Positions 18,933-23,320 of a stretch of DNA of 52,612 nucleotides are shown piece by piece. The notes under the pieces were generated by a model. That model saw nothing but the letters and a program-made list of their open reading frames with translations, was not told where the DNA came from and made no database searches. Position numbers and translations under genes: made by a program. The DNA comes from Gemmatimonadota bacterium (GTDB lineage Bacteria > Gemmatimonadota > Gemmatimonadetes > Longimicrobiales > Gaopeijiaceae), in the NCBI GenBank assembly GCA_022564055.1, contig JADFMD010000011.1, positions 1 to 52,612 of the forward strand. Direction: 5' to 3'. How positions within the stretch are numbered: position 1 is the first letter of the stretch; the number at the start of each line of letters is the position of its first letter.

Positions 18933-20387
18933 CTATGCGTCGGCGTTCGGTTCTTGCGGCTCCGACTCCTCGGCACCGAGCCGCTCGGCAACGACTTCGG
19001 CGTCGGCATCCTCCCCAGGATCGGGCTCCTCCTTTTCGGCCTGCTCGCTATCGGCCTGCTCGCTATCGGCCGGCCGGCTATCGGTCGGCTCGCTTTCGGT
19101 TTCCTCGTCCGGCGGCTCCTCATCCGGCGGCTCCTCATCCGGCCGCTCCTCGGAAGATGCATCGTCGGTGATGGAAACCTCCACGGAGACCTCGCCGGCG
19201 GGAACGTCGTCAGCGGCGCCATTTTCGGCCGTCGGTTCCGCCACACGCGCTTCGTCCGGGATGGCATCCTCGACGGGCGCCGCTTTGTCCGGAACATGTT
19301 CAGCGGCGACATCCTCGAACACCAAGCCGTCGGCCTGAGCATGGTCCGGGGCTGCCCCCTCGCCCGCCGACGCCTCGGCAGGTGCATCGTCGGAAGCGAT
19401 ATCGGCGAAAACCAGCTCCTTGCTGGGGACCTCGCTCGCGGCGGCCTCCTCGATCTGGGCCTCCTCGGACTGGGCCTCCTCGGTGGCCTTCGCGGCGGCC
19501 GAGGCCTCTTGGGCGATGGCCCCTTCTGCCTCTTCAAGTTGGGCGATAGCCTCTTCTGCCTCTTCAAGAGCTATCGCCTCGGCGACGATAGCCCGCTCCA
19601 GGTCTCGCTCCTCGGTCGAATGCTTGAGTGCTTGCTCGATCCTTTCTCCCTCTTCCTTGGCCCGAGCCAGCCCCTCCGCGGATTCGGGTGTGAGGATCAC
19701 TCCACAACCCTCACACCGAAACATCGTATCGGTGTGACGTATCTGGTTCTGAATCTGGAGCGGAACCATGTTGTAGCAGTTGCCGCAAGCACCGTCGTGA
19801 GTGAGCTCAGCGAGCGCCACATCTCTGGCCCCCGCCATGATACTGTCGTAGACCCGCCTCTCGCCCGGGTCGATCCCTGCCGCGAAGGCCTCTCGGTCGG
19901 TCTCAAGCGTTTCGAGCTTGTCCTTCGTGGCCTGTTGTTCCTGTACCAGTTCCTCGCGGCGGGGCCCCACTTCGGTCACGGCTCCCTGGTAGGCCCCTTC
20001 CTCCTCTTCGTATCGATCCTCCAACCGCTTGATCTGGTCCAGGAGGCTCAGGGCCTCCTGTTCCTCACTCTCGAGAGCCCGCCTGACCATCTCCAGTTCG
20101 GCGTGCACCGCCGCCTCCTCCCGCACGTTCCGGACCGCCTCCATGCGTTCTTTGAGTTTGGCTAACCGAACCTGCCGCTCTTCGATAGTCAGCTCGAGCC
20201 TGTTTTCCTCGAGCCTGATCTCGGTGAGTCGCTTGTCGAGAGCCTGTACCTCCTGCTCCAGCCGGAGCACCGGCGCGTCGACCTCCTCCAGGAGGGACTC
20301 GAAGCTCTCGGTCGCCGTCCGAACGGCGACGATCTCCTGATCCAGCGTCTGCAGCTCCTTCAGGGATGTCCGTGTCTGTGGTGTCAT
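18933..20387 (-). CDS. coiled-coil zinc-ribbon protein with a long acidic tail
   Basis: The 484-residue protein opens with a long antiparallel coiled coil (about residues 5-170), followed by a C4 zinc ribbon with C201-x2-C204 and C225-x2-C228. This is the architecture of the CT398/YP-type zinc-ribbon family, whose members are usually about 240 residues long. Here about 245 further residues follow, almost all Ala, Glu, Asp, Pro and Ser, with pentapeptide repeats of DEEPP and DSEQA type. The tail is predicted to be disordered. The function is unknown, with nucleic-acid or flagellar-type chaperone roles suggested for relatives. It lies 36 bases downstream of dnaG. Confidence 0.85.
   Translation of the reverse strand: MTPQTRTSLKELQTLDQEIVAVRTATESFESLLEEVDAPVLRLEQEVQALDKRLTEIRLEENRLELTIEERQVRLAKLKERMEAVRNVREEAAVHAELEMVRRALESEEQEALSLLDQIKRLEDRYEEEEGAYQGAVTEVGPRREELVQEQQATKDKLETLETDREAFAAGIDPGERRVYDSIMAGARDVALAELTHDGACGNCYNMVPLQIQNQIRHTDTMFRCEGCGVILTPESAEGLARAKEEGERIEQALKHSTEERDLERAIVAEAIALEEAEEAIAQLEEAEGAIAQEASAAAKATEEAQSEEAQIEEAAASEVPSKELVFADIASDDAPAEASAGEGAAPDHAQADGLVFEDVAAEHVPDKAAPVEDAIPDEARVAEPTAENGAADDVPAGEVSVEVSITDDASSEERPDEEPPDEEPPDEETESEPTDSRPADSEQADSEQAEKEEPDPGEDADAEVVAERLGAEESEPQEPNADA
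19038..19155 (-). repeat. 15-bp in-frame repeats encoding an acidic pentapeptide tail
   Basis: Four 15-bp units at 19038-19097 (two exact copies of GGCCTGCTCGCTATC, then two diverged) and three at 19111-19155 (two exact copies of GGCGGCTCCTCATCC, one diverged). The 15-bp period keeps frame, giving repeated DSEQA and DEEPP pentapeptides on the minus strand. Confidence 0.85.
19523..19568 (-). repeat. 30-bp-spaced duplication in the same gene
   Basis: The 16-mer CTTCTGCCTCTTCAAG occurs at 19523-19538 and again at 19553-19568, a 30-bp (10-codon) period. It encodes the repeated LEEAE(E/G)AIAQ helix segments at the start of the acidic tail. Confidence 0.75.
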
Positions 20388-20423: not shown

Positions 20424-22226
20424 CTATAGGTGATTGTTCTTGAGTGCTCTGCGTACGGTCGGTGACCAATCCTGCCCCAACCCCCTGCGCTCCTTGCTGA
20501 GCCGGTCTTTCTCGCCGAGGAGTTGGGTCTCCTGCTGCTCGTCCAAGGTATTCTGTAGGAGATGGTCCACCGCGTCGAGCCTCTCCTGCAACAAAGTACT
20601 GAGGATCTTGCTCAACGATTCCTCGAAAACCCGCTGGGATCGGCCGAGTTCCGCGGGATCGGCCAGCAGCACCTCCAGTACGCGGGCGGCCTCAGGAACC
20701 ATTTTCTCCGGCGGGTGCGTCAACTCATGGTCCGCCAAGAGCGACTCGAAGATGGCGCGATACCGGACATCCACGAAGTCTGGAGGTCCGAGGCGCTCGC
20801 CAACGCGCTCGATCCAATCACGGTCCTTGATCATGAGAAGCAGCAACTCGCGCTCGGGGCCCATCTCAGGCACGGAGGGTCGGGAGAGACGGCGGTGTTC
20901 GCGGCCGCGCACTGCACGCTGCGGCGTGGGCGGGGGCGCGACCCGCGCCAACTCGGCCTCCAACGTGTCCCGACGTACCCCGGTACGATCCGAAACCTTC
21001 TTGATGTAGATGTCCCGCATGGCGGGATCCTGGACGGCACGCAGTGTCGGAAGCAGCCGGTCGATGGCGGCCCGTATGTGCTCGATGCTCCTGAATTGAT
21101 CGCGCTCCTCCAGAATCTGGAGCTTTCGGTCGAGGACGTCGACGGCCCCGTCGATGTGGCCTTGGAGCGCTTCGGCACCCTCGGAGTGAACGATGTTGTC
21201 GGGATCTTCTCCCGGTGGGAGCGTAACAACGCACGGGTGCACGCCTCCGGACAGAAGCAGATCGGCGGCTCGGAAGGTCGCCTTGAGACCGGCCGCGTCA
21301 CTATCGAAAAGGAGGTGAGCCCTCGATGTAAAGCGGCGGAGAAGGGCCACCTGGCCTGGAGTTACAGCAGTTCCGAGCGGAGCGACCACATTTTCGAATC
21401 CGGCAGCCGCAAGGGACACGACATCCATGTACCCCTCAACCACGAGCGCCGTCTCCCTCCGGCGAATCGTGTTCTTCGCCCAGCTCAACCCGTAGAGGAT
21501 TTCCCCTTTGTGGTAGACCGGAGACTCGGGGGAGTTGACGTATTTGGGCGATCCCTCCCTTCCGGGCCCCAACACCCGGCCACCAAATCCCACCACCTTC
21601 CCGGAGAGACTCTCGATCGGAAAGATGAGCCGGCCACGGAAACGGTCATAGGGATCCTTTCGCTTTTCACTGCGGGTAACGAGGCCCGCTTCGAGCAGGA
21701 CCTCTTCTCCGATTCCGTGGTGTGACGCCGCCTCGTGAAGTCCCCGCCACGCGTCGGGTGCGTAGCCGAGGCCAAAACGTTCGGCTGTCTCTCGGCCGAT
21801 ACCTCGCTCCTGCAGATAATCCATGGCCGAGCGTCCGGTCGTCTCATCCCAGAGCGAGTTCTGGAAAAACATGCGAGCGAATGCGTTGGCTTCGTGGAGG
21901 TGACGATAGGGATCCTCCCCGGTCTGGCCCCGGTTCACCTCTCGGATCTCTACTCCGCTACTGCCCGCCACGTGCTTGACGGCATCCACGAAGCTGAGGC
22001 CGAGCCGCTTCATCAGGAACGCGAAGACGTCACCGGACTCACCACACCCGAAGCAATTGTAGAATCCCTTCTCCGGGACCACATAAAAACTCGGTGTTTT
22101 TTCATCGTGGAAAGGGCAGCAAGCCTTGTAGTCCTTCCCCGACTTCTTGAGCGGTACGATGTCTCCGATCACCTGAACAATGTCGGCGCGGGAGCGAACC
22201 TCCTCGACCTGATCGTCCGGGATCAT
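20424..22226 (-). CDS. dnaG: DNA primase
   Basis: DnaG makes RNA primers for replication. The 600-residue protein has the CHC2 zinc finger (CCPFHDEKTPSF and FYNCFGCGESGD, ligands near Cys37, His40, Cys58 and Cys61). The catalytic core follows with YLQERGIGRETAERFGLGYA, FPIESLSGKVVGFGGRVLG, the Toprim motif LVVEGYMDVVSLAAAG and SRAHLLFDSDAAGLKAT. A helical C-terminal helicase-interaction region closes the protein. The start is ATG 22226, overlapping the stop of the mutS2-like minigene by ATGA. Confidence 0.97.
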   Translation of the reverse strand: MIPDDQVEEVRSRADIVQVIGDIVPLKKSGKDYKACCPFHDEKTPSFYVVPEKGFYNCFGCGESGDVFAFLMKRLGLSFVDAVKHVAGSSGVEIREVNRGQTGEDPYRHLHEANAFARMFFQNSLWDETTGRSAMDYLQERGIGRETAERFGLGYAPDAWRGLHEAASHHGIGEEVLLEAGLVTRSEKRKDPYDRFRGRLIFPIESLSGKVVGFGGRVLGPGREGSPKYVNSPESPVYHKGEILYGLSWAKNTIRRRETALVVEGYMDVVSLAAAGFENVVAPLGTAVTPGQVALLRRFTSRAHLLFDSDAAGLKATFRAADLLLSGGVHPCVVTLPPGEDPDNIVHSEGAEALQGHIDGAVDVLDRKLQILEERDQFRSIEHIRAAIDRLLPTLRAVQDPAMRDIYIKKVSDRTGVRRDTLEAELARVAPPPTPQRAVRGREHRRLSRPSVPEMGPERELLLLMIKDRDWIERVGERLGPPDFVDVRYRAIFESLLADHELTHPPEKMVPEAARVLEVLLADPAELGRSQRVFEESLSKILSTLLQERLDAVDHLLQNTLDEQQETQLLGEKDRLSKERRGLGQDWSPTVRRALKNNHL

Positions 22227-22342
22227 CCGAAGCTCCCCACGGTTACGCCGGCCCCACGCTCGGCACGCCCGCCGACCCTGAACGCCGACACCTGTCCGAG
22301 GACTCGATGGAACTCCAGCACGGTGAGGGCGTGCTCGCTCAT
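22223..22342 (-). pseudogene. mutS2 deletion scar (39-codon minigene)
   Basis: This short frame reads MSEHALTVLEFHRVLGQVSAF and then RVGGRAERGAGVTVGSFG. The first part resembles the N-terminus of MutS2, where LEFHKV is typical. The second resembles the MutS2 C-terminal end, which typically closes with GG.GVTVVxL. About 700 residues that would lie between them, including the ATPase and Smr domains, are absent. The frame stays open across the junction and ends in an ATGA overlap with dnaG, 31 bases after yqeY. The simplest explanation is an internal in-frame deletion of mutS2. The assignment rests on motif resemblance. Confidence 0.55.
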
Positions 22343-22373: not shown

Positions 22374-22811
22374 TCACTTGAGAACTTCCCGCACGATGCG
22401 GTTCGCTTCTTTTCCATCGAACCGTCCTCGAATCTCCGGCATGATTCGGCTCATCACGGCACCCATTTCGGTGGCACCGGAATCGATCGCTTCCCGGACC
22501 AGTGCCTGGACCTCGCCCTCGGAGAGAGCGGGTGGAAGGTACACCTGGAGTAGGGTGGCCTCCTCGGTTTCCTTCTCGGCCAACTCCGGACGCCCTGCCT
22601 CCAGCATCTGTTCCGCCGCGTCACGCCGCTGCTTGATCGCCTTCACCACGATGACCTGAATCCCCTCGTCATCCAGGTCTTCCCCGACCTCGATCTCTCG
22701 ATTGCGCACCTCCGACAGGAGCGTGGTGAGGACCACCGTGCCCAACCGATTTCGCGCCTTGCGGACCACGACGAGGTCACTTCGGAGCCTCGCTTTCAGA
22801 TCTTCCGCCAT
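22374..22811 (-). CDS. GatB/YqeY domain-containing protein
   Basis: The 145-residue protein from ATG 22811 starts MAEDLKARLRSDLVVVRKAR and continues through NREIEVGEDLDDEGIQVIVV, IKQRRDAAEQML and the C-terminal EMGAVMSRIMPEI, with a final NRIVREVL helix. This is the YqeY/Aim41 family, related to the tail domain of the GatB amidotransferase subunit. Its molecular role is not established. A longer frame to 22916 is rejected as non-homologous. It is followed by the mutS2-like scar and dnaG, a common order. Confidence 0.93.
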   Translation of the reverse strand: MAEDLKARLRSDLVVVRKARNRLGTVVLTTLLSEVRNREIEVGEDLDDEGIQVIVVKAIKQRRDAAEQMLEAGRPELAEKETEEATLLQVYLPPALSEGEVQALVREAIDSGATEMGAVMSRIMPEIRGRFDGKEANRIVREVLK

Positions 22812-22927: not shown

Positions 22928-23320
22928 ATGAAGACCATACCCGATCTTGCGAGGGAGATCCTGAGTCGTTCGCCCACTCCCGCGCTTCCACTCCCTGGCC
23001 TCGTCGAGGCGATCGAGGAGGAGACCACCGGGCACCTCCCCAGTCCCGCACGGATCCTGACCGAGATTCGGTCGCGCCCCGACCTTTTTCGCGTTCTCGA
23101 TCCCGTGATCGGACCTTGGCGTCGCGCAAAGGCGGAGCCAGGCGGCCCCCCCCCGTGGAGCCCCGCAACTTGGGTTCTCGGCCTCGATCCCAACACCCGA
23201 GCGAGTTCGCCAGTTTCGGCTCGCACCTCGGAAAGTCTTCGGTGCCTGGGAAGGAGGGTCGACGAGAATTCGGCGATGGCCGTGGCACGTTGGCTTCTAC
23301 TGATCCAGAGGTGTACCTAG
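22928..23320 (+). CDS. hypothetical protein, possible helix-turn-helix N-terminus
   Basis: The second plus-strand gene in the window, of 130 residues. GAGGAGATC precedes the ATG as a ribosome binding site, and third positions are GC-rich as in the neighbours. The first 60 residues (MKTIPDLAREILSR, then LPGLVEAIEEE and ARILTEIRSRPDLFRVL) look like a small helical, winged-helix or HARE-like fold. The rest is Pro/Arg-rich with a short C-terminal helix. I recognise no family. It diverges from yqeY and converges on prmA. Confidence 0.6.
   Translation: MKTIPDLAREILSRSPTPALPLPGLVEAIEEETTGHLPSPARILTEIRSRPDLFRVLDPVIGPWRRAKAEPGGPPPWSPATWVLGLDPNTRASSPVSARTSESLRCLGRRVDENSAMAVARWLLLIQRCT

Follow-up and report, generated by a model that had tools for sequence, protein, structure and literature searches.

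The window, i.e. the whole stretch of DNA analysed here, comprises bases 1–52612 of contig C103 in genome G000, a fragmented bin of 3.38 Mb in 259 contigs with a completeness of 87.26%; the named relatives that match its DnaG are Gemmatimonadota metagenome bins. Genes yqeY and dnaG flank a short frame (22342–22223) that translates to MSEHALTVLEFHRVLGQVSAFRVGGRAERGAGVTVGSFG* and whose stop codon overlaps the start of dnaG (Table 1). Read mechanically, the longest frame here starts at 22417 and has 64 codons; the start at 22342 was picked by homology. Divergent from yqeY is a 130-aa frame (22928–23320, forward strand), which relatives conserve, again on the strand opposite yqeY (71–73% identity in the congeners). 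A CdsZ-like zinc-ribbon coiled-coil protein is encoded at 18933–20387 on the reverse strand; its C-terminal tail is long, acidic and rich in repeats (PPDEEPPDEE...).

Table 1. Features of the yqeY–dnaG region, in window coordinates.
Feature	Coordinates	Strand	Evidence
yqeY, upstream gene, 146 aa	22374..22814	-	PF09424 YqeY, 114 bits
mutS2 remnant frame, 39 codons + TGA	22223..22342	-	Frame reading, congener comparison, genome search
N-terminal half of scar, MutS2 codons 1–18	22289..22342	-	14/18 residues identical to G002; 49.4 bits on the family profile
Deletion junction GTG (Val), common to both ends	22289..22291	-	Compared with G002, lacks 751 codons (2253 bp)
C-terminal half of scar, last 21 MutS2 codons, EGG changed to ERG	22226..22288	-	Profile and codon comparison
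ATGA, remnant stop overlapping dnaG start	22223..22226	-	Sequence; likewise in 36/52 mutS2–dnaG pairs of relatives
dnaG, DNA primase, intact, 600 aa	20424..22226	-	TIGR01391, 438 bits

The first-pass annotation had read the short frame as the N- and C-terminus of MutS2 joined by an internal in-frame deletion, and comparison of the yqeY–dnaG interval with close relatives bears this out. In the congener G002, whose DnaG is 87% identical, a complete mutS2 of 790 codons lies between yqeY and dnaG with a 4-base overlap with dnaG; a second congener, G003, has mutS2 in the same place up to the end of its contig. The G002 protein begins MSEHALTVLDFYRALEQV... (its start is also given as MSEHALTVLDFYRALEQVADRATS) and ends ...VSEFRVGGRAEGGAGVTVATLR*, and the scar keeps both terminal sequences as well as the yqeY–mutS2–dnaG order. 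When G002 MutS2 was searched against all of G000 the only matches were MutS1 on contig C111 and the two scar halves, with C103:22286–22342 corresponding to residues 1–19 (74%) and C103:22232–22294 to residues 768–788 (76%). These BLAST matches are weak (E values of 0.2 and 3.9, neither significant alone), and it is the position profiles built from relatives that settle the matter. The N-terminal half scores 49.4 bits on its profile, its best shuffle 12.0, and the next-best score among about 105,000 six-frame window positions is 1.4; the C-terminal half scores 36.9 bits, compared with 13.6 for the best of 50,000 shuffles, though all but one of the 45 intact MutS2 C-termini score higher. We regard the profile matches of both halves to MutS2 as decisive.

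Little of the protein is left. Pfam and NCBIfam searches of the 39-aa remnant peptide gave zero matches, the peptide being too short. The MutS domain V ATPase (PF00488), which scores 118 bits in G002 MutS2, has no match in the remnant, the KOW/MSSS domain (PF20297) was found nowhere in assembled G000, and the C-terminal Smr domain (PF01713) is not retained in the scar beyond the last 21 MutS2 codons; the only frame in G000 to match Smr has 137 aa and lies apart, on contig C143. The remnant matches MutS2 (MutSB; TIGR01069; B. subtilis MutS2) over its first 18 codons and its last 21, and in its place between yqeY and dnaG, but it lacks 751 codons, and with them the complete ATPase and KOW and all but the end of Smr, and cannot act as MutS2.

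The codon arithmetic is exact (39 + 751 = 790). The breakpoints fall at Val18 and Val769 of G002 MutS2, and GTG is present at both (CAGGTGGCGG and CGCGTGTCCG); only these three bases are common to the two G002 breakpoints, no long repeat is evident, and the scar junction reads CAGGTGTCGG. We consider it very probable that a natural, single, in-frame deletion removed the middle of MutS2 and left the 39-codon remnant. The 2253 bp between the two GTG codons would have been lost after the split from G002, most likely through short-homology slippage or end joining, either of which fits a short common sequence in a region with no long repeat. Such a loss would have taken out the clamp, the lever, the ATPase, KOW and almost the whole of Smr; the in-frame join would have produced a 39-codon frame that still overlaps dnaG at the ancestral ATGA, and the cell would have been left without MutS2. 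The first-pass annotation had proposed such a loss, and the searches agree with it: a MutS2 model search of the assembled genome (87% complete) found no MutS2, and the whole-genome search found no intact mutS2 elsewhere. The remnant peptide contains no domain and is probably without function of its own. A DnaG tree pairs G000 with G002 as sisters (100/98) and places G003 next, a grouping that points to a recent loss, separate from that in G033 and genus g14 described below. Counting against a deletion is that most complete losses in the family are in reduced genomes (~2 Mb), whereas G000 is not clearly reduced. As an event this is ordinary gene decay, with no difference in kind from other cases in which a bacterial gene has lost its middle in frame, keeping its start and end codons and showing short homology at the junction; what sets it apart is which gene was hit and how many parallel losses accompany it.

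We surveyed 121 genomes of the family to which G000 belongs, and MutS2 scores above the curated cut-off in 101 of them, with the order yqeY–mutS2–dnaG wherever a single contig carries all three genes. Judged on contigs that hold both yqeY and dnaG, mutS2 is entirely absent from G033, where 13 bases separate the two flanking genes, from three species of genus g14 (~107–110 bases) and from G030 (163 bases). Two further genomes, G010 (L081) and G028 (L078), have a MutS2 that ends after KOW, with Smr alone missing and the 4-nt dnaG overlap kept. G000, G002 and G003 lie apart from the clade of G033 and g14 in the DnaG tree, and by this placement the losses in G000, in G033 plus g14, and in G030 are three separate events. 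On the sequence comparisons there are at least three separate complete losses, and the partial forms (the two Smr-only losses and genus g24, below) add three more. Loci with mutS2 cut by contig ends (G003, G029, G073 and G140) were not scored as losses, and eight genomes with contig ends or undecidable fragmented bins (G001, G005, G021, G061, G063, G105, G132 and G144) were set aside. G034 (L082) was also not counted, its locus being rearranged with both yqeY and mutS2 missing before dnaG; by eye, a HIT-family gene precedes dnaG there. The literature searched contained no paper on MutS2 in Gemmatimonadota or on loss of mutS2 beside dnaG.

Genus g24 presents a different form of reduction. In its five species (L077 and L195–L198) a Smr-bearing frame of 172–178 aa stands in place of MutS2 between yqeY and dnaG, and KOW/MSSS is above the model cut-off in four of the five. 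All five frames have DLH as the Smr motif. Among MutS2 rows, the motif pattern could be located in 46; 45 of these have DLR or DVR, and the remaining one (G006) has DLR in a second pattern. The DxH motif is tied to mRNA cleavage (PMC10897456). With their MSSS/KOW and Smr domains and their DLH and GxG motifs, the g24 frames are like the KOW-SMR proteins of the Bacteroidetes type (PMC10897456) and SmrB, but they match best the C-termini of MutS2 from the clade to which they belong in the tree (G120, G134 and G091), and they look to have been derived from MutS2 in place. The scar in the window differs from KOW-SMR proteins and SmrB in having no KOW and retaining only the last part of Smr. The likely start of the g24 frame (V-N/S-E-Q) resembles the first codons of MutS2.

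The first-pass annotation also drew attention to the open frame and retained ATGA overlap, and both are confirmed. A 4-nt mutS2–dnaG overlap is found in 36 of the 52 pairs read in relatives, a count that includes partial forms; judged from these pairs, the overlap in the scar is the ancestral state. Its geometry makes coupling to dnaG through the remnant possible, and the remnant, if translated, may go on delivering ribosomes to the start of dnaG. An additional rather than alternative reading to the deletion is that selection now maintains the 39-codon frame as a leader peptide that feeds dnaG by termination–reinitiation at ATGA. The open frame and the intact ATGA are consistent with this, as is the retention of the 4-nt overlap in all four partly deleted lineages (G000, g24, G010 and G028), but a feature already so common among mutS2–dnaG pairs would be there anyway, and the complete losses in G033, g14 and G030 leave 13, ~107 or 163 bases before dnaG with no overlapping frame, so such a frame is not required. 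Nor do the initiation signals favor it: the ribosome-binding site ahead of the remnant start is weak (-2.2), and the ribosome-binding energy before dnaG in G000 (-7.0 kcal/mol, about 14th of 62 rows) is unremarkable. We consider selection as a leader peptide unlikely. We also rejected the proposal that the scar created a strong new ribosome-binding site for dnaG, that in G000 not being exceptional among relatives.

An assembly artefact or chimera, in which mutS2 is complete in the true genome and 2253 bp of it were dropped during assembly, could give the same picture, as the first-pass annotation cautioned. The contig comes from a fragmented bin, the congeners retain mutS2, and the join is seen in a single assembly, so to this extent the caution stands; but the ends of the junction in G002 have only GTG in common, and with no long repeat evident, assembly collapse lacks an evident cause. 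In addition, the join is in frame (a chance of 1 in 3), the contig extends 22 and 30 kb past the junction, and no stray mutS2 fragment is present on any other G000 contig. The remnant has also changed in sequence. EGG is invariant in 45/45 MutS2 and 5/5 KOW-Smr relatives, but the scar has ERG instead, a change that suggests a genuine, somewhat aged deletion and not an assembly error. Compared with G002, the scar has 10 nonsynonymous and 7 synonymous codon changes in just 39 codons, against 77 and 158 for dnaG in the same pair (p = 0.036), a hint of relaxed constraint; relative to MutS2 of G002 and G003 the nonsynonymous excess is not significant (p = 0.13). Together with the low profile score of the C-terminal half, these changes lean towards decay following a real deletion, and we regard an artefact as very improbable. 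That MutS2 was relocated rather than lost, with a copy in the unassembled 13% of the genome, is compatible with the completeness of G000, but relatives with all three genes on one contig have mutS2 between yqeY and dnaG, our tables show mutS2 and dnaG as neighbors in almost every genome with the gene, and the scar is evidence that the copy at this site was destroyed, making relocation very improbable.

MutS2 is a DNA protein as well as a ribosome-rescue factor, and RqcH is its partner in ribosome quality control (RQC). In B. subtilis, MutS2 binds collided ribosomes via KOW and SMR and splits them via its ATPase, feeding RqcH (PMC10897456), and across bacteria 97% of RqcH-bearing genomes have MutS2 (PMC11633108). 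With a profile built for the family, RqcH is detected in G000 (on contig C108), G030 and G010 and in part in G028, where a weak PF05833 search had wrongly suggested absence and the profile recovered a fragment at the edge of a contig. With the same profile RqcH (NFACT) is undetected in the genomes of G033, g14 and g24, including G016, G092 and G093; these are also the lineages in which the MutS2 ATPase is gone. Only three genomes with MutS2 lack RqcH, all of them multi-contig bins. By genome count the link between the two losses is strong, RqcH being absent from 9 of the 11 with MutS2 loss or reduction and from 3 of the 101 with MutS2 (p = 2e-9); counted by lineages, co-loss is seen in 2 of 4. 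The link is thus no more than suggestive and may reflect genome reduction in general. We tentatively propose, as somewhat less likely than not, that g24 has exchanged RQC splitting of collided ribosomes for SmrB-like mRNA cleavage and lost RqcH as well, that G000 keeps RqcH without the splitter, and that the locus forms a natural deletion series.

G000 represents a single-step loss of MutS2 with RqcH kept, a combination found in only ~3% of RqcH-bearing genomes (PMC11633108), and it points either to another ribosome splitter or to a dispensable RQC step. Evidently dnaG tolerates losing the gene that overlaps its start. The scar, the in-place losses, and the Smr-less and KOW-Smr forms constitute a natural mutant set bearing on which MutS2 domains matter, and in this family the same locus records the graded and repeated loss of a ribosome-rescue factor.
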